This document shows positions 49,796-60,194 of a stretch of DNA of 64,000 nt, one piece after another. This DNA comes from Streptomyces sp. 2114.4 (GTDB lineage: Bacteria; Actinomycetota; Actinomycetes; Streptomycetales; Streptomycetaceae). The position numbers were made by a program, and so were the translations under genes. The stretch covers positions 5,704,001-5,768,000 of the forward strand of contig NZ_FYEY01000001.1 in NCBI RefSeq assembly GCF_900187385.1, given 5' to 3'. Position 1 is the first letter of the stretch. Each line of letters begins with the position of its first letter. The notes beneath the pieces were generated by a model. It had not been told where the DNA came from and ran no database searches. It saw only the letters and a program-made list of their open reading frames with translations.

Positions 49796-50758
49796 ATGGC
49801 AACCGCAGACCAGCGCACCGAAGCGCATGACGTATGGCTCCCGATCCCGCCCGACGAGATCGACGGCCTCCCCGGCGGTCTCAGCTACGTCCACTGGGAC
49901 GCCGGCCCCGACTACCCGGCCGACCCGGCCCGCTGCGCCTTCTACGCCGTCCCCTACATGAAGGACACGGAGACCAGCCTGCGCCCGCTGTCCCGGATGA
50001 GCCGTGTGAGGGTGGTGCAGACGCTCACCGCCGGTGTCGACAGCATGCTCCCGGGGCTGGCGCGGATGCCGTCCGGAGCCCAACTGTGCAACGCGCGGGG
50101 GCTGCACGACGCCAGCACCGCCGAGCTGGCGCTCACCCTGATCCTCGCCGCGCTGCGCGACGTCCCGGGCTTCGTACGGGGCCAGGACGCGGGGGAGTGG
50201 CGGCACGGCTTCCGGCCGGCGCTCGCCGACAAGTCGGTCCTCATTGTGGGCTATGGTTCGATCGGCAGTGCCATCGAAGACCGGCTCACGCCCTTTGAAT
50301 GTGCGCGGGTGACGCGCGTCGCGCGCACCGCGCGTGACACTGTGCGCGGCCTCGTGCATCCACTCTCCGAACTGTCCGCCCTCCTGCCCGATGCGGACGT
50401 GGTCGTGCTGGCGACTCCGCTCACCGATACGACGCGTGGCCTGGTCGGACCCGATTTCCTGGCGCGGATGAAGGACGGCGCACTGCTCGTGAACATCGCG
50501 CGCGGCCAGATCGTCGACACCGGGGCGCTGCTCGCCGAACTGGAATCCGGACGGCTGCGCGCCGCACTCGATGTCACCGATCCGGAACCCCTGCCCCCCG
50601 GGCATCCGCTGTGGCACGCTCCGGGCGTACTCATCACTCCACACGTCGGTGGCCCCAGCTCTGCCTTCCTGCCCCGTGCGAAGCGGCTGCTGCGCGATCA
50701 GTTGACGCTTTTCGCGGTCGGCGAGCCCCTGCGGAACGTGGTCGCCACCGCCGACTGA
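49796..50758 (+). CDS. D-isomer-specific 2-hydroxyacid dehydrogenase
   Basis: This 320-residue NAD(P)-dependent oxidoreductase has a Rossmann motif VLIVGYGSIGSAIEDRL (about residues 147-163), the catalytic Arg in VNIARGQIVDT, the Asp-Pro-Glu in VTDPEPLPPGHPLW, and the catalytic His in ITPHVGGPSS. The N-terminal catalytic domain is short and diverged, and no ACT domain is present, so it is not a classical SerA. The substrate is unknown. A hairpin follows the stop. Confidence 0.92.
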   Translation: MATADQRTEAHDVWLPIPPDEIDGLPGGLSYVHWDAGPDYPADPARCAFYAVPYMKDTETSLRPLSRMSRVRVVQTLTAGVDSMLPGLARMPSGAQLCNARGLHDASTAELALTLILAALRDVPGFVRGQDAGEWRHGFRPALADKSVLIVGYGSIGSAIEDRLTPFECARVTRVARTARDTVRGLVHPLSELSALLPDADVVVLATPLTDTTRGLVGPDFLARMKDGALLVNIARGQIVDTGALLAELESGRLRAALDVTDPEPLPPGHPLWHAPGVLITPHVGGPSSAFLPRAKRLLRDQLTLFAVGEPLRNVVATAD

Positions 50759-50771
50759 CCGCTTGCGCGTA

Positions 50772-50794
50772 GCAGTACGAGGCCGTACGACTGC
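50772..50794 (+). terminator. Hairpin after the hydroxyacid dehydrogenase gene
   Basis: GCAGTACG and CGTACGACTGC pair around AGGC with one bulged base, 14 nt after the stop. Confidence 0.65.
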
Positions 50795-50907
50795 AAAGCG
50801 TGTTCGCCATTCGCTGACAGTCACGCTCCGTAGAGACGCTATGTCCCTGAGTGACGGAACTGGTGTATCGTCCCGAGCGGGGACGACGCCGGGAAGGACG
50901 CGGCGCG

Positions 50908-53900
50908 ATGCGAAAGATCCGGAACTCGAGGGGGGCGACGGGCGATGTACAGCCGATGGATGATTCGCGAAAAGCGCGATCCACGACCGCCCACGGGGAT
51001 ACTGCGAGGTCCGCAGGCGCACCGCTCGCGATGCCCGGTACGGACGACGCGGCGCCCGGTGCGGACGAGGGGAAGAGTCCGGTGAGCGCCCCCGGGGCGA
51101 TGCTCTCGCGGCCACCGGCACCGGCCGGCAACCCACCGGGTGTGGCGCCGCAGATCGTCCTCGCCGTGCTCTGCGGCGGCTATGCCGTCGGTGCCGCCTT
51201 CGGCTGGGGATCGCCCGAAGTCGCCGCGTTCATGGGGGACTTCGGCCTCAGCTTCGCGGCGTTCCTGGCGGCCTTCTCCTGCGGTCTGTACGCCCGCAAG
51301 CGCCGCACCCGGTTCCGCCCGGCATGGATGCTGTTCGCCGCCTCGTCCGGCATGGCCGGTCTCGGCAACGGCGTCTGGGGCTGGTACGAGGTCATCCAGG
51401 GCACCACGGTCCCCAGCCCCTGCCTGGCCGATTTCTGCTTCCTGCTGTTCGCGCCACCCGCCATCGTCGGTCTGCTGGTGCTCGCCAAGAGGCCGGTGAC
51501 CAGGGCCGGCTGGGTCTGCCTGGGCCTCGACTCCTGGCTGATCGCGGGATCGCTGGTCACCCTCTCGTGGAGCCTCGCGCTCGCCCACACCGCCCACTTC
51601 CAGGGCCGCAGCGTGGCGCAGAGCGCGCTGTCGCTGGCCTACCCGCTGCTGGACATCGTGCTGGTGAGCATGGTGCTCGCGCTGCACTTCCGGCGCTCCT
51701 CGGTGCACCGCTCGGCCATCAACACCGCCGTCGCGGCGCTGGCGCTGACGGTGCTGTGCGACGCCCTGTTCAGCTCGCCGCTGCTGCGCGAGCACTACCG
51801 CTCCGGACAGATCCTGGACGCCGGCTGGTTCGCCGGCTCGATGCTGCTCGCGTACGCACCCTGGGTCGCCCGCCGTGCGGGCGAGGAGTGCCCCGAGGAG
51901 GACGTCAAGCCCGCCCGCCGGGTCCCGCCGCACGGCAGCCGCCCCATTGCGGGCTCGCTCGCCGCGCTCACCCCGTATCTCGCCGCCGCCGTCTGCACGC
52001 TCGGCATCCTCACCAACGTCCTCGACGGGCGCCGCATCGACCGCGTGGTGCTCTTCACCGGCTGCACGGTCGTGCTGGCGCTGGTCGTCCGCCAGGGCAT
52101 CATGCTGCTCGACAACATCACCCTCACCCAGGAGCTGGCGCAGAAGGAGAACCACTTCCGCTCCCTGGTGCAGGGCTCCAGCGACGTCATCATGATCGCC
52201 GCCCCGACCGGTGTGCTGCGCTACGTCAGCCCGGCCGCCGCCGGGGTCTACGGCCGCGACGCCGAGGAACTGGTCGGCTCCGAACTGGCCTCGCTGATCC
52301 ACCCCGAAGACCTGGGCCGGGTGGTCCACGAGGTCCGCAGATTCCTCGCCGCCGCCCCGAGGACGAACCCACCACCCGTATCGAATGCCGCTTCCGCGCG
52401 GGCGAACAGCGCTCCGGCGGCGACGGCTGGCTGAACGTCGAATCCACGGTCAACCGCCACCACGGCGGCCTGATCTTCAACTCCCGCGATGTCACCGAAC
52501 GCGTCCGGCTGCAGGCTCAGCTCCAGCACAACGCCTCCCACGACGCGCTCACCGACCTGCCCAACCGCGCGCTGTTCACCGATCGCGTGACCCAGGCCGT
52601 CACCGGCCGCCGGGCCAGCGACCACGACACCGCCGTGCTCTACATCGACCTCGACGGCTTCAAGCAGGTCAACGACACCATCGGCCATCAGGCCGGCGAC
52701 GAACTGCTGGTGCAGGCCGCCCGCCGGCTCGGTGACTCGGTGCGCTCCGGGGACATAGCGGCGCGCCTGGGCGGCGACGAGTTCGCCGCGCTGATCACCG
52801 GCGACGGCACCCGCGACCGCGCCGCCCGCGAATTCCGGATCCACGAGATCGCTGACCGGCTGCGTATCAAGCTCTCCGAGCCCTACCGCATCGACGGCCG
52901 GGACGTCCGGGTGGCGGCCAGCATCGGCGTCGCCTTCGCCGACCCCGGAGTGAGCCCCGCGGGCCTGCTGCGCAACGCCGACCTGGCGATGTACCGCGCC
53001 AAGCAGGCCGGCAAGGGCCGGGTGGAGCTGTACGCACCCCAGATGCAGAGCGAGGTGGCACACCGTGCCGAGCTCGCCACCAAGCTGCGTACGGCCCTGC
53101 ACGACGGGGCGTTCACGCTGCTGCACCAGCCGGTGGTGGAGCTGGCCGGGGGCCGGGTCACCGCGGTCGCGGCCCACGCCCGCTGGCGCTCCGCCCAGGG
53201 CATCCTGTTCACCCCCGCCGAATTCCTGCGGGTCGGCGACCGCGGCCGGTTCACCGACGACGGCGAGCGCACCGCGGAGCTGGACCGGTGGCAGCTGGAG
53301 GCGGCCGTCGAGCAGGCCGCGGCGCGCCACCGCGCGGGCTACCCGGTCCCGGTCGCGGTCCGGCTCTCCGCCCGCCGGCTGCTGGACCACGCACTGTCCC
53401 CCAAGGGCGTCGAGTCGCTGCTCACCCGGCACGGCCTGCCCTCGCGGGCGCTGGTCCTGGAGCTGTCCGACAGCGACTCCCGCATCCCGCTCGACGACCT
53501 GGAGCGCCGGCTGGTCGCGCTGCGCCGCCTCGGCGTACGGATCGCCCTGGACGGCTTCGGCAGCGGATACGCCGCCATCAGCGCGCTGCGCCGGCTTCCG
53601 GTCGACGTCCTGCGGCTGGACCGCGGTCTGGTCGACGGCGTGGTGGAGTCCGCCCGGCTGCACAAGATCACCGCGGGGCTGCTGCGGATCGCCGGAGACC
53701 TGGGCATGCAGTCCGTCGCCGACGGCGTCGATCTGCCCGAGCAGGTCCTCGCGCTGCGCTCCATGGGCTGCACGCACGGCATGGGCACGGCCTTCTCGGG
53801 GCCGCTCGACGAGCACCGGCTGCGGCGGTCCCTGGCGCACGCCCACTACCCGGTGCCGGACCTGCCGGGCCAGAGCCGGGCGGTGGTGCTCACCGGTAGC

Positions 53901-53996
53901 GGGCTGCCCGTCCGGCACGGCGGACCGGCCGGTCCGGATTCGCTCATGCATCCGCCATTGCGCTCAAATAGTGAGACCTCCGTCCCACCCACTTGA
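50908..53996 (+). pseudogene. Membrane PAS-GGDEF-EAL gene broken by a one-base frameshift
   Basis: A start at ATG 50908 (GGAAGGA at 50892-50898) opens a frame with about nine membrane helices and a PAS domain that runs to 52434. The continuation (rest of PAS, GGDEF and EAL) is in the next frame, to 53996. Adding one C in the CCCC run at 52355-52358 rejoins them smoothly into AAAPEDEPTTRIECRFRAGE. The GGDEF motif is intact (52770-52784). The EAL domain is degenerate: the EAL-RW site reads AAHARW, the DDFGTGY site reads DGFGSGY, the catalytic Lys region reads LRLDRGLV and the last Glu is Asp (VADGVD). It corresponds in position to the second GGDEF/EAL gene before ilvB in S. coelicolor. It may be a real mutation or a sequencing error. 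Confidence 0.88.
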
Positions 53997-54029
53997 CACT
54001 CGGTGCACGGCGGGGGGAGGGTCTGTGCC

Positions 54030-54071
54030 ATGCGCACCCGAATTCTCGTACTTGGAAAGCGCGTCGGCTGA
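54030..54071 (+). CDS. ilvB leader peptide (13 residues, Ile-Leu-Val-Leu)
   Basis: ATG 54030 to TGA 54071 encodes MRTRILVLGKRVG. It has a strong ribosome-binding site (GGGGGGAGG at 54012-54020) and four consecutive branched-chain codons, Ile-Leu-Val-Leu, at 54042-54053. A terminator-like hairpin follows about 40 nt later and ilvB about 130 nt later. This is the classical layout of attenuation by ribosome stalling, which has been predicted for ilvB genes of actinobacteria. Confidence 0.9.
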   Translation: MRTRILVLGKRVG

Positions 54072-54147
54072 AGCCGGGTCACTGACGAAACCCGACTCGC
54101 ACACCGACGCGCTCCCCTCGCTTGCCACCTGGCACGAGGGGTTTTTT
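54058..54147 (+). promoter_or_regulatory. ilvB transcription attenuator (alternative stem plus terminator)
   Basis: AGCGCGTCGG (54058-54067) pairs perfectly with CCGACGCGCT (54104-54113). Immediately after, CCCCTCG (54114-54120) and CGAGGGG (54135-54141), with an inner TGCCA/TGGCA stem, form a terminator followed by TTTTTT (54142-54147). A ribosome stalled on the Ile-Leu-Val-Leu codons would cover the first arm and should change which stem forms. Confidence 0.85.
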
Positions 54148-54203
54148 GTTGCACAGCAACCTCACATATCCGTCAAAACCCTCAGCTTCGAGAAGAGACG
54201 CAG

Positions 54204-56063
54204 ATGACCGAGCAGGCCTCCGGGGCCCACCATCCGCAGCCGCGGGCCCGTCACTCCGGCGGACCGCAGCAGCCCGCCGCCGTCGAGCACGTCACGGGTG
54301 CGCAGTCGCTGATCCGTTCGCTCGAGGAGGTCGGGGCCGACACCGTGTTCGGCATTCCCGGCGGTGCGATCCTTCCTGCGTACGACCCGATGATGGACTC
54401 CTCGAAGGTCCGGCACGTCCTGGTGCGCCACGAGCAGGGCGCCGGCCACGCGGCCACCGGCTACGCCCAGGCCACCGGCAAGGTCGGCGTCTGCATGGCG
54501 ACCTCGGGCCCCGGCGCCACCAACCTCGTCACCCCGATCGCCGACGCCCATATGGACTCCGTCCCGATGGTGGCGATCACCGGTCAGGTCGCGTCCAAGG
54601 CGATCGGCACGGACGCCTTCCAGGAGGCGGACATCTGCGGCATCACGATGCCGATCACCAAGCACAACTTCCTGGTCACCGACCCCGCCGAGATCCCCCG
54701 GACGATCGCCGAGGCGTTCCACATCGCGGCCACCGGCCGCCCGGGCCCGGTCCTGGTCGACATCGCCAAGGACGCCCTCCAGGCCCGGACCACCTTCGTC
54801 TGGCCGCCGCACACCGAGCTGCCCGGCTACCGCCCGGTGACCAAGCCGCACGCCAAGCAGATCCGCGAGGCCGCACGGCTGATCGCCGAGTCCAAGCGCC
54901 CGGTGCTCTACGTCGGCGGCGGTGTGATCAAGGCCGGCGCCACCGCCGAGCTGAAGGTGCTCGCCGAGCTGACCGGCGCCCCCGTCACCACCACCCTGAT
55001 GGCCCTGGGTGCCTTCCCCGACAGCCACCCGCAGCACGTCGGCATGCCCGGGATGCACGGGGCGGTCACCGCCGTCACCGCGCTGCAGAAGTCGGACCTG
55101 CTGATCACCCTCGGCGCCCGCTTCGACGACCGCGTCACCGGCAAGCTGGACTCCTTCGCGCCGTACGCCAAGGTCGTCCATGCGGACATCGACCCCGCGG
55201 AGATCGGCAAGAACCGTGCCGCGGACGTGCCGATCGTCGGCGACGCCCGCGAGGTCATCGCCGACCTGATCGTCGCCGTCCAGGCCGAGCACGACGCCGG
55301 CCACAAGGGTGACTACACCGCCTGGTGGAAGGACCTCAACCGCTGGCGGGAGACCTACCCGCTCGGCTACGACCTGCCCGAGGACGGCAGCCTCTCCCCG
55401 CAGCAGGTCATCGAGCGGATCGGGCAGCTCGCCCCCGCCGACACCATCTACGCCGCGGGCGTCGGCCAGCACCAGATGTGGGCCGCCCACTTCATCGGCT
55501 ACGAACAGCCCTCGACGTGGCTGAACTCCGGCGGCGCCGGGACGATGGGCTACGCCGTCCCCGCCGCGATGGGCGCCAAGGCCGGCCGGCCGGACCGTAC
55601 GGTCTGGGCGATCGACGGCGACGGCTGCTTCCAGATGACCAACCAGGAGCTGGTCACCTGCGCGCTGAACAACATCCCGGTCAAGGTCGCGATCATCAAC
55701 AACGGAGCGCTGGGCATGGTCCGCCAGTGGCAGACCCTCTTCTACAACCAGCGCTACTCCAACACCGTGCTCCACTCCGGCCCCGAGGCCGACGGCAAGC
55801 AGCCGAGTGCAGGCACCCGGATCCCGGACTTCGTGAAGCTGGCCGAGGCGATGGGGTGCGTGGCGATGCGCTGTGAGGACCCGGCCGAGCTGGACGCGGT
55901 CATCGCCAAGGCCAATGCCATCAACGACCGCCCGGTCGTGATCGACTTCATCGTGCACGAGGACGCCCAGGTGTGGCCGATGGTCGCCGCCGGCACCTCC
56001 AACGACGAGGTCATGGCCGCCCGGGGCGTGCGTCCCGACTTCGGCGACAACGAAGACGACTGA
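54204..56063 (+). CDS. ilvB: Acetolactate synthase large subunit
   Basis: This 619-residue ThDP enzyme makes acetolactate and acetohydroxybutyrate, the first committed step of Val, Leu and Ile synthesis. ATG 54204 follows AGAAGAGACG. The ThDP-activating Glu77 is in [16 protein letters not shown], the domain linker has [15 protein letters not shown], and the ThDP/Mg motif is [20 protein letters not shown] ending in a conserved Asn pair. The N-terminal 30 residues are a poorly conserved extension. It is the first structural gene after the attenuator and is followed by ilvN after 40 nt. Confidence 0.97.
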
Positions 56064-56103
56064 GCCCAGGACGTTACGGACGCACGGAAGAAGAGAGAAG
56101 ACC

Positions 56104-57727
<1,624 letters not shown>

Positions 57728-57734
57728 GCCGAAT

Positions 57735-57773
57735 GGACAGGGGGTCGCGAAACTGCTCGCGGCCCCCTCGTCC
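57735..57773 (+). terminator. Hairpin after ilvC
   Basis: GGGGGTCGCGA (57740-57750) pairs with TCGCGGCCCCC (57757-57767), with one G-U pair, extended by GGAC/GTCC outside. Confidence 0.85.
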
Positions 57774-58028
57774 GTGCGCCCGGCCGGCTGCCGGAGCGCC
57801 TTGTCCACCGCGTCGAACCACGCACGGGTGATCCTTACGCACCGGCACAGGACGCGCCCCCCATCGCCACTACACTTGCCCATCACAAGCGCGTCAGGCT
57901 CACAGCGTCGTGCGTCTTCCACGCGGCTTTCCCCCTTCACCGCCTTCGGCCGTCGGGACGGCCGCCCTCCCCCCACAGCCTTGAGGGCGTGGGAGGTACC
58001 CCCAGGACTAGTGAGGACTGAAGAGCAC
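57774..58028 (+). promoter_or_regulatory. serA upstream region with a candidate promoter
   Basis: The gap between ilvC and serA is 301 nt. A TACACT -10 box at 57871-57876 is the best promoter candidate and gives a leader of about 150 nt. No riboswitch or leader peptide is recognised. Confidence 0.35.
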
Positions 58029-59621
58029 GTGAGCCCGAAACCAGTCGTACTGATCGCTGAAGAGCTGTCGCCCGCCACCGTCGACGCCCTCGGTCCGGAC
58101 TTCGAGATCCGGCACTGCAACGGCGCGGACCGCGCCGAGCTGCTGCCCGCCATCGCCGACGTCGACGCCGTCCTCGTGCGCAGCGCGACGAAGATCGACG
58201 CCGAGGCCATCGCCGCCGCCGGGAAGCTCAGGGTCGTCGCCCGCGCGGGCGTGGGCCTGGACAACGTCGACGTCTCCGCCGCCACCAAGGCCGGCGTGAT
58301 GGTCGTCAACGCCCCGACCTCCAACATCGTCACCGCCGCCGAGCTCGCCTGCGGTCTGCTGGTGGCCACGGCTCGCAACATCCCGCAGGCCAACACCGCC
58401 CTGAAGAACGGCGAGTGGAAGCGCAGCAAGTACACCGGTGTCGAGCTCAGCGAGAAGACCCTCGGCGTGGTCGGCCTCGGCCGGATCGGCGTCCTGGTCG
58501 CGCAGCGGATGTCGGCGTTCGGCATGAAGGTCGTCGCCTACGACCCCTACGTCCAGCCGGCCCGTGCCGCGCAGATGGGCGTCAAGCTGCTGAGCCTGGA
58601 CGAGCTGCTGGAGGTCGCGGACTTCATCACCGTCCACCTCCCCAAGACGCCCGAGACCGTCGGCCTGATCGGCGACGAGGCGCTGCACAAGGTCAAGCCG
58701 TCCGTCCGGATCGTCAACGCCGCCCGTGGCGGGATCGTCGACGAGGTGGCGCTGGCCACCGCGCTGAAGGAGGGCCGGGTGGCCGGCGCGGGCCTCGACG
58801 TCTACGCGACCGAGCCGTGCACCGACTCGCCGCTCTTCGAGTTCGACCAGGTCGTCGCCACCCCGCACCTCGGTGCCTCGACGGGTGAGGCGCAGGAGAA
58901 GGCCGGTATCTCGGTCGCCAAGTCGGTGCGGCTCGCGCTGGCCGGCGAGCTGGTGCCGGACGCGGTCAACGTCCAGGGCGGCGTGATCGCCGAGGACGTC
59001 AAGCCGGGCCTGCCGCTGGCCGAGCGGCTGGGCCGGATCTTCACCGCCCTGGCCGGCGAGGTCGCCATGCGCCTCGATGTCGAGGTGTACGGCGAGATCA
59101 CCCAGCACGACGTCAAGGTGCTCGAACTCTCCGCGCTCAAGGGCGTGTTCGAGGACGTCGTGGACGAGACGGTGTCCTACGTCAACGCCCCGCTGTTCGC
59201 GCAGGAGCGCGGGGTGGAGGTGCGGCTGACGACCAGCAGCGAGTCGCCCGAGCACCGCAATGTGGTGACCGTGCGCGGCACCCTGGCGGGCGGCGACGAG
59301 GTGTCGATCTCCGGCACGCTGTCGGGCCACAAGAACACCCAGAAGATCGTCGCGGTCGGCGAGCACTCCATCGACCTGTCGCTCGCGGACCACATGGCCT
59401 TCATGCGCTACAGCGACCGCCCCGGTGTCGTCGGCACCGTCGGCCGGATCCTGGGCGAGGCGGGCATCAACATCGGCGGGATGCAGGTCTCCCGGGCCGA
59501 TGTCGGCGGCGAGGCGCTGGTCGCGCTGACCGTCGACGACACGATTCCCCCGAACGTGCTCACCGAGATCGCCGAGGAGATCGGCGCGACCTCCGTGCGC
59601 GCGGTGAACCTCGGCGACTGA
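58029..59621 (+). CDS. serA: D-3-phosphoglycerate dehydrogenase, long ACT-containing form
   Basis: The protein has 530 residues from GTG 58029. It oxidises 3-phosphoglycerate, the first step of serine synthesis. Features are the N-terminal nucleotide fold with VARAGVGLDNVDV, the Rossmann motif TLGVVGLGRIGVLVAQRM, the catalytic Arg and Glu in VNAARGGIVDEVAL and YATEP, the catalytic His in TPHLGASTGEAQ, the allosteric ASB domain and a C-terminal ACT domain (FMRYSDRPGVVGTVGRILGE). This is the type I actinobacterial form sensitive to serine. It is followed by a strong terminator. Confidence 0.97.
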   Translation: MSPKPVVLIAEELSPATVDALGPDFEIRHCNGADRAELLPAIADVDAVLVRSATKIDAEAIAAAGKLRVVARAGVGLDNVDVSAATKAGVMVVNAPTSNIVTAAELACGLLVATARNIPQANTALKNGEWKRSKYTGVELSEKTLGVVGLGRIGVLVAQRMSAFGMKVVAYDPYVQPARAAQMGVKLLSLDELLEVADFITVHLPKTPETVGLIGDEALHKVKPSVRIVNAARGGIVDEVALATALKEGRVAGAGLDVYATEPCTDSPLFEFDQVVATPHLGASTGEAQEKAGISVAKSVRLALAGELVPDAVNVQGGVIAEDVKPGLPLAERLGRIFTALAGEVAMRLDVEVYGEITQHDVKVLELSALKGVFEDVVDETVSYVNAPLFAQERGVEVRLTTSSESPEHRNVVTVRGTLAGGDEVSISGTLSGHKNTQKIVAVGEHSIDLSLADHMAFMRYSDRPGVVGTVGRILGEAGINIGGMQVSRADVGGEALVALTVDDTIPPNVLTEIAEEIGATSVRAVNLGD

Positions 59622-59643
59622 TTCGCAGGTTTTCGCAGGCCAA

Positions 59644-59679
59644 CGGGCCCGGACCCCGCTTCGGCGGAGTCCGGGCCCG
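59644..59679 (+). terminator. Hairpin after serA
   Basis: Arms of 16 nt (59644-59659 and 59664-59679) with one mismatch close a TTCG tetraloop, 22 nt after the stop. Confidence 0.88.
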
Positions 59680-59756
59680 GTTGCGTCCGCGGGGGCGGCG
59701 TCGCGCAATGGAAAGTGTGCGTGCCCCCGCCGGTGCGTGCGGAAGGAGGGAACGCC

Positions 59757-60194
59757 ATGGAGGCACCCCTGGACGGCGCCCCCGGGAGCCTGACCGGGCT
59801 GCATGTCGTCGATGCGGACGGCGCCAAGGTGGGCAAGGTCCAGCAGGTCTACCGGGACGACGCCACCAACGACCCCGAGTGGATCACGGTGCGCACCGGG
59901 CTGTTCGGGATGAAGGAGACCTTCATCCCGCTCGCCGGGGTCCGTCGGAGCGGCGACGATCTGCACGTTCCGCACGCCAAGGAGACCATCAAGGCCGCGC
60001 CGCGGATCGACGCCGACGGCCATCTCGACCCCTCGGAAGAGGACGAGCTCTACCGCCACTACGGGATGGCCCGGCCGGGTACGGCGCGCCCCGGCGACCC
60101 GTCGGGCCCCGGGGGGACGGCGGATCCCGGCTCAGGGCGTGCACCGGATCCCGGCTCCGGAACCCCGCACCCCGACGACACACCGGGCGGCTAG
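59757..60194 (+). CDS. PRC-barrel domain protein
   Basis: The protein has 145 residues. ATG 59757 has a perfect ribosome-binding site (GGAAGGAGGG at 59741-59750, 6-nt spacing). The PRC barrel spans about residues 10-85 (LTGLHVVDADGAKVGKVQQV, PEWITVRTGLFGMKETFIPL), followed by a helix (EEDELYRHYGM) and a Gly/Pro/Asp-rich tail. Such proteins are common in Streptomyces and are of unknown role. The strong start and stand-alone position suggest high expression. Confidence 0.88.
   Translation: MEAPLDGAPGSLTGLHVVDADGAKVGKVQQVYRDDATNDPEWITVRTGLFGMKETFIPLAGVRRSGDDLHVPHAKETIKAAPRIDADGHLDPSEEDELYRHYGMARPGTARPGDPSGPGGTADPGSGRAPDPGSGTPHPDDTPGG

Follow-up and report, generated by a model that had tools for sequence, protein, structure and literature searches.

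The window analyzed here, the whole 64,000-nt stretch of DNA from Streptomyces sp. 2114.4, carries on its plus strand ilvB followed by ORFs of 174 and 383 aa, a row that fits ilvB-ilvN-ilvC; we take the latter two to be ilvN and ilvC. The ORF next to ilvB and upstream of the promoter (51324-53996) has a GGDEF motif (AARLGGDEFAAL) and presumably encodes a cyclic-di-GMP-type protein. Table 1 lists the parts of the ilvB leader region. A preliminary description, made from the sequence, had placed a leader peptide, a 10-bp stem, and a terminator with six T upstream of ilvB, and all three are where it put them, the two arms of the stem pairing perfectly. Its view of the whole as an attenuator of ilvB that carries a branched-chain leader peptide is supported, and such an attenuator has already been published for Streptomyces. 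Two features of the class to which the S. lividans ilvL attenuator belongs are present, namely an ORF with Ile, Leu, and Val codons (ILVL) upstream of ilvB and, by folding, an intrinsic terminator between leader and ilvB. The element is a known attenuator, the ortholog of S. lividans ilvL, and the kind of switch has been described before; it probably raises the synthesis of valine, leucine, and isoleucine upon shortage in Streptomyces.

Table 1 Features of the ilvB leader region of Streptomyces sp. 2114.4 (coordinates in the window)
Feature	Coordinates	Strand	Basis
-35 box TTGACA	53993..53998	+	conserved TTGAC spacing before the leader start
-10-like hexamer GAGGGT (nAnnnT), overlapping the GGGGAG once read as a ribosome-binding site (54014-54019)	54017..54022	+	conserved A and T positions
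Leader ORF ilvL, MRTRILVLGKRVG and stop codon; transcription predicted to start at its own ATG	54030..54071	+	sequence; S. lividans ilvL peptide
In-frame GTA valine codon, proposed main sensing codon	54048..54050	+	present in 176/176 scored leaders
Stem 1 left arm AGCGCGTCGG, within the leader ORF	54058..54067	+	sequence, covariation
Hairpin inside the stem 1 loop (CGGGT 54075-54079 / ACCCG 54090-54094), its sequence variable among species	54075..54094	+	upstream comparison, folding
Stem 1 right arm CCGACGCGCT	54104..54113	+	sequence, covariation
Intrinsic terminator, 0 nt behind stem 1; arms CCCCTCG 54114-54120 / CGAGGGG 54135-54141, upper stem 54123-54126 / 54131-54134, T6 54142-54147	54114..54147	+	folding, conservation
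ilvB, acetolactate synthase large subunit, 619 aa, taken as the regulated gene	54204..56063	+	ORF; homologues 82-100% identical

A simple consensus scan listed neither promoters nor terminators here. The promoter was missed because GAGGGT is far from TATAAT, and the terminator because its 7-bp stem encloses a second stem, which is beyond the loop limit of the scan. The promoter call rests on conservation and on the S. lividans report, and the terminator call on folding and conservation. Right behind the T run, GTTGCAC (54148-54154) is kept in 93 of the 104 Streptomyces loci, though it lies past the termination point.

Leader peptides upstream of ilvB have been predicted in Corynebacterium, Mycobacterium, and Streptomyces (PMC1262725); the preliminary description, too, names predicted attenuators of actinobacterial ilvB. 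Those predictions are like the present element in their runs of Ile, Val, and Leu codons before a terminator; the sections of PMC1262725 dealing with them leave the mode of regulation open and mention no constant GTA, fixed spacing, or leaderless start for the element. Closer still is ilvL of S. lividans TK24 (SLIV_10947), which lies upstream of ilvBHC and is reported to be transcribed leaderless (PMC8079986); that study counts 0-3 nt as leaderless and gives the motifs TAnnnT and, for leaderless genes, TTGACn. In S. lividans the peptide is identical, the operon is of the same type, and hairpins and a U-rich stretch again lie downstream; the account of ilvL in PMC8079986 reveals no difference from its ortholog here.

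The purine run GGGGAG had been read as a strong ribosome-binding site of the leader. It sits instead in the promoter spacer and -10 region (TTGACA, 18-nt spacer, GAGGGT), so that the Shine-Dalgarno-led start seen in trp-type leaders is absent. In 100 of the 104 Streptomyces loci TTGAC starts 37 nt ahead of the ATG, in the other four 36 nt ahead of it, and A at -12 and T at -8 are each kept in 98% of these loci. Among other genera, with the leader start chosen blind to the promoter for this count, TTGAC occurs 34-38 nt before the start in 59 of the 72 scored loci (about 0.6 expected); these 59 loci have A at -11 in 47 cases and T at -7 in 54. Words resembling a Shine-Dalgarno sequence were seen in 17 of the 72 leaders of other genera. 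Taken with the S. lividans report, this layout suggests that the element is most likely leaderless in Streptomyces sp. 2114.4 too. When the window was scanned for TTGAC plus A...T at leaderless spacing before ATG or GTG, a single start was returned, that of ilvL at 54030. The preliminary description had further let GGGGAG pair with CTCCCC (54112-54117); the letters are complementary, but by homology GGGGAG lies outside the transcript and should be absent from the RNA, because the identical S. lividans leader is reported to be leaderless. The pairing was therefore rejected, the run being untranscribed if the leader is leaderless, and a role of the initiation site in the switch is not supported.

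The leader is present upstream of ilvB in all 104 Streptomyces loci, and IlvB itself turned up in every one of the 61 Streptomyces genomes sampled (best match 82-100% identical) as well as in further genomes. The 42-nt ORF is identical in 60 of the 104 loci, with a one-base variant (AAG to CAG) in 25 more, and conservation is about as strict at its synonymous sites as at the rest. In a named collection at least 120 stretches hold this ORF letter for letter, either A or C being allowed at the variable position, and the 80 matches listed for it come from Streptomyces, Streptantibioticus, or Actinacidiphila. A second ilvB copy (L116, G053:C9:50047-50547), 72% identical to IlvB of Streptomyces sp. 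2114.4, has its own leader MRTRILVLGQRVG and lies in a genome that also has the usual copy. For other genera, loci came from 64 of the 88 non-Streptomyces class-sample genomes with an IlvB match and from 14 of 15 other order-sample genomes (one used twice). Seventy-two of these 79 loci were scored, and seven had no ORF under our rules (L080, L081, L148, L149, L151, L172, and L178); L080, L081, L149, and L151 have a leader-like ORF with an in-frame GTA and no run of five T, and later inspection found no leader-like GTA ORF in L148, L172, and L178. Leader starts were chosen with a preference for a -35 box in the Streptomyces counts and in the spacing and coverage measurements; for other genera the choice was repeated without that preference for the promoter and GTA counts.

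An in-frame GTA is present in 72 of 72 scored leaders of other genera and in 104 of 104 Streptomyces leaders; the ORFs of other genera had been picked by a run of Ile, Leu, and Val codons and a downstream T run, and GTA was not used in the choice. GTA is rare in ilvB (12 of 3911 Val codons), as are ATT (20 of 2588 Ile codons) and CTT (14 of 2751 Leu codons), counted over the part of the gene between an inner motif and the stop codon, in L002-L085 apart from L075, where that motif was not found. The codon preceding GTA varies (CTC 47, GTA 10, GTC 9, CTT 3, ATC 2, and GTT 1), and so does the other flank. A 5'-end hairpin, AUGCG/CGUAC, that appears in some folds was considered as the cause of the constant GTA; the variable codons before it suit a constraint on the codon better than one on an RNA motif, although this is not proof. 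The stop codon follows GTA by only 9 nt in 11 of the 72 leaders of other genera (L072, L077, L082, L150, L156, L158, L167, L179, L181, L182, and L183), where it lies at the edge of stem 1, and stem 1 still begins 9-11 nt after GTA; in several of the loci L188-L207 the stop codon likewise comes soon after GTA. The RVG/RAG tail of other leaders is dispensable, since the hairpin holds its place relative to GTA in these short ones. Earlier work noted the importance of GUA in close C. glutamicum relatives, and in M. tuberculosis the codon marked as the regulatory one is GUA (PMC13236596); no paper reporting a class-wide constant GUA was found in the open-licence literature.

The distance from this codon to stem 1 is set almost as strictly. 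Counted from the first base of GTA, stem 1 starts after 10 nt in all 104 Streptomyces leaders and after 9-11 nt in 68 of 72 others (172/176), and the gap between stem 1 and the terminator is 0 nt in 102 of the 104 Streptomyces leaders, 1 nt in the other two, and 0-2 nt in 70 of the 72 others (174/176). Between the end of the stop codon and the terminator there are 35-56 nt in Streptomyces and 17-44 nt elsewhere. As far as our searches go, a constant GTA, a set distance, and abutting helices, together and at such breadth, are undescribed. A control set for hairpins abutting unrelated terminators comprised 17 sites, five with an abutting helix of at least 8 bp, but was unusable, several of the sites being leaders that had escaped the filter and others looking like A-runs of the opposite strand.

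The 118-nt transcript (54030-54147) has a folding energy of -47.7 kcal/mol (z = -3.17), which 1 of 200 shuffles matched. In an alignment of 68 leaders from other genera, the six counted pairs of stem 1 are paired in 96.3% of the cells, and four of the six have changes on both sides. Taking stem 1 and the terminator helix together, none of 500 shuffles attained the observed values for share of pairs, both-side-changed cells, or covariation score; the number of pairs with both-side changes was attained by 46 of the 500, however, and that of pair types by 91, and the sequences are related. An ungapped count gave 88.3% paired vs. 50.4% in shuffles, with stems located by folding, which favors pairing, and RNAalifold on a MAFFT alignment returned stem 1 only. 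These alignments indicate that stem 1 covaries across genera; within Streptomyces, for which the preliminary description proposed a covariation check, stem 1 hardly varies and so offers no covariation to score.

We built a covariance model (R3) from 68 aligned leaders of other genera, none from Streptomyces, leaving out leaders with a stem-loop longer than 50 nt and, of the 70 listed, the near-copies L125 and L144. In the 8.07-Mb genome the leader site is its only strong match (E = 5e-15; next match 0.6). R3 matches 237 of 296 class-sample genomes and 102 of 114 genera, in a sample that includes Streptomyces and the training genomes and with matches counted regardless of ilvB position, and 41 of 198 phylum-sample genomes, 15 within the class and 26 outside it. 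Twenty loci from 19 of the 26 genomes outside the class were read, and IlvB is encoded downstream in 16 of them; an in-frame GTA ORF was found by script in 11 of the 16, GTA was seen by eye at the same place in L188, L197, L198, and L201, and no GTA was found in L206. R3 contains the GTA, so that its matches are not an independent test of that codon. Rfam 15 gave no match at gathering score in 50000-60000, and the best subthreshold match on 53950-54210 was a Rhizobiales sRNA (E = 0.12).

The leading edge of the ribosome was assumed at A-site+12, as known from toeprint work. With this footprint, a ribosome on Ile, Leu, and Val (codons 5-7) of the Streptomyces sp. 2114.4 leader covers 0, 0, and 21% of the left arm of stem 1, one on the last Leu (CTT 54051-54053) covers 43%, and one on the stop codon covers 100%. 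Median left-arm coverage with GUA in the A site is 0.25 in Streptomyces and 0.20 in the others, and with the stop codon it is 1.0 in both; the stop-codon ribosome covers the whole arm in 103 of 104 Streptomyces leaders and 67 of 72 others. The contrast weakens with a longer footprint, the GUA medians rising to 0.50 and 0.45 (Streptomyces and others, respectively) at A-site+15 and to 0.75 and 0.67 at A-site+18. In the preliminary description, stalling on ILVL was taken to open stem 1 and the open stem to prevent termination. The partial coverage by a ribosome on the last Leu, and the generally greater reach of a longer footprint, speak for such a mechanism, but coverage at A-site+12 points the opposite way: with a ribosome on any of codons 5-7, 79-100% of the arm stays free, the stop-codon ribosome is the one that covers all of it, and the terminator left arm has no upstream partner when the ribosome is stalled. 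We regard opening of stem 1 by the stalled ribosome as improbable. That description misread one part of the element, the ribosome-binding site, and probably reversed one step of its logic.

Its remark that an antiterminator is not obvious holds, none being found by base pairing in the stalled state: equilibrium folding of the 176 leaders yielded no antiterminator of the trp type, that is, one sharing bases with the terminator. The terminator left arm is paired upstream in the stalled state with a mean probability of 0.06 in Streptomyces and 0.03 in the others, and above 0.5 in 0 of 176 leaders; such pairing was rejected as a general mechanism. When the stretch from GUA+13 to the terminator was shuffled, the same measure rose to 0.49 (Streptomyces) and 0.42 (others), so it is the pairing of stem 1 with itself that keeps the real values low. 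A ribosome on the stop codon raises upstream pairing of the left arm to 0.23 and 0.20 (above 0.5 in 5 of 104 Streptomyces leaders and 2 of 72 others), higher than in the stalled state, which is the opposite of a classical antiterminator. The stem 1 right arm in other genera is paired upstream with a mean probability of 0.59 with the ribosome on GUA and 0.16 with it on the stop codon; in Streptomyces this measure fails to separate the states (0.62 with GUA vs. 0.61 with the stop codon occupied), because the freed arm finds other partners. The terminator has a mean equilibrium probability of 0.99 in Streptomyces and 0.93-0.94 in the others in each ribosome state, exceeding 0.9 in 101-104 of 104 and 45-47 of 72 leaders, respectively, depending on the state. 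Since it forms in every state and has no bases in common with stem 1, strand exchange is not visible in the stalled state.

Strand exchange might still take place in ribosome-free RNA before the terminator right arm is made, if stem 1 were extended by pairing CGA (54039-54041) and GG (54054-54055) with UCG and CC of the terminator left arm. The left-arm mean probability in Streptomyces is then 0.60 (single pairs 0.71-0.79), the extension would help explain the frozen CGA and GG, and an antiterminator and terminator overlapping by 3 nt have been reported for C. glutamicum. The partners, however, lie under a ribosome on GUA, with the probability then falling to 0.06; other genera reach 0.29 even ribosome-free, and an unbroken extension of stem 1 into the terminator is possible in only 2 of 176 leaders. 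Classical exchange of this kind seems to us very unlikely.

We favor a leaderless, ribosome-controlled ilvB attenuator in which the stalled ribosome leaves stem 1 mostly uncovered and the stem then impedes the terminator that abuts it, and give this reading a probability of roughly 0.55. Transcription would start at the ATG, and a ribosome would load directly onto the leader ORF without a ribosome-binding site. When branched-chain aminoacyl-tRNA is short, the ribosome would wait on the Ile, Leu, and Val codons, above all on GUA, where it would stand just behind stem 1 and leave it mostly folded; when the tRNAs are charged, it would reach the stop codon and bury the left arm, so that stem 1 could not form. 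Least certain is the last step, in which a folded stem 1, 0-2 nt away, may hinder the terminator from closing at RNA polymerase and so permit readthrough into ilvB, without competing for terminator bases. Abutment is what remains conserved once strand exchange is not seen, and from this we infer the step. The parts that sequence comparison supports are the leaderless promoter layout, the branched-chain codon run with its constant GUA, the spacing from GUA to stem 1, and the terminator right behind it.

In favor of this mechanism are the reports on the S. lividans and C. glutamicum starts, the promoter spacing, the constant GTA, its set distance to stem 1 even in leaders with an early stop codon, the abutment, the covariation of stem 1, the contrast in coverage, and, in other genera, the contrast in right-arm pairing; in C. 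glutamicum, moreover, mutations at the base of the terminator are reported to have raised ilvB expression. Against it, equilibrium base pairing gives no sign of stem 1 opposing the terminator, and the size of the GUA-versus-stop contrast varies with the footprint chosen. For C. glutamicum, older work is cited in which deleting part of the terminator hairpin had no marked effect. In E. coli, repression is reported for terminators that follow a gene by only a few bp, with efficiency rising with distance; given the 35-56 nt (Streptomyces) or 17-44 nt (others) from stop codon to terminator, a ribosome at the leader stop codon may not be neutral. Our searches found no direct precedent for abutment; nearest in kind is a manganese riboswitch, in which a helix adjoining the paused polymerase is reported to enforce readthrough.

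Stem 1 could alternatively be only a pause hairpin that lets the ribosome catch up with RNA polymerase, with the antiterminator elsewhere and yet to be found. The leader of Streptomyces sp. 2114.4 does have a U-G step 10-11 nt past stem 1, at the distance where a hairpin pause usually occurs. Pausing alone, however, offers no on-off choice, and the stalled state contains no alternative structure, which makes a mere pausing role rather unlikely.

A different objection concerns sensing itself. Changes to the leader codons of S. coelicolor ilvB are reported to have had no effect on regulation (Seliverstov et al. 2005, citing Craster et al. 1999), which counts against our mechanism and would fit a Streptomyces leader that is not a sensor of branched-chain amino acids, a DNA-binding regulator such as NdgR doing the sensing and the terminator only setting the level; binding of NdgR upstream of S. 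coelicolor ilvB has been published. Yet the leader is frozen in 104 of 104 Streptomyces loci and GTA is kept in every scored leader, a codon change (LVVI to AAAA) is reported to have abolished induction in M. tuberculosis (PMC13236596), in line with ribosome control, and the NdgR study itself calls NdgR not essential for branched-chain amino acid synthesis in its conditions. Sensing by such a regulator is therefore unlikely in our view.

Comparison with other attenuators separates what is shared from what is particular. E. coli trp-type attenuators, in which the position of the ribosome likewise sets the fate of the terminator, have a Shine-Dalgarno start and an overlapping antiterminator; the Streptomyces ilvB leader differs in its probable leaderless start and its abutting helices. 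The Corynebacterium ilvBNC attenuator (PMC11857589, with a three-hairpin model) and the ilvB-II motif (PMC10272879) resemble it in the start, transcription in C. glutamicum being reported to begin one nucleotide from the leader start codon. The Corynebacterium hairpins, however, are said to have a 3-nt GCC in common, whereas stem 1 and the terminator of Streptomyces have none. Among published ideas for ilvB, the closest is the C. glutamicum model, where the antiterminator and the terminator adjoin through this 3-nt overlap and interchange at little energetic cost. The M. tuberculosis ilvB1 attenuator (PMC13236596) is alike in its branched-chain uORF and intrinsic terminator; it is proposed there that stalling on the branched-chain codons allows an antiterminator and that a ribosome at the stop codon prevents it, with mutually exclusive hairpins. 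No paper on transcription attenuation by a leaderless uORF in Actinobacteria was found in the open-licence literature. Extended to Actinomycetota at large, our reading would be that no base-paired antiterminator is needed, that the rare GUA halts the ribosome at a set distance, and that the intact abutting hairpin prevents termination through where it stands at RNA polymerase, with no bases shared; we hold this wider form only tentatively, as possible rather than probable.

The Streptomyces leader poses a contradiction, since it looks like an attenuator while codon changes are reported to be without effect, and a codon change in M. tuberculosis is reported to be effective. What evolution has kept is a probable leaderless start, one exact valine codon, the distance from codon to hairpin, and a hairpin directly against the terminator, and each of these can be altered by a few bases in a reporter, which makes an old puzzle testable. 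An overlapping antiterminator is the usual mark by which attenuators are recognized; if the abutment model is true, attenuators can work without one, and the tRNA decoding GUA would be indicated as a sensor for the whole branched-chain pathway.
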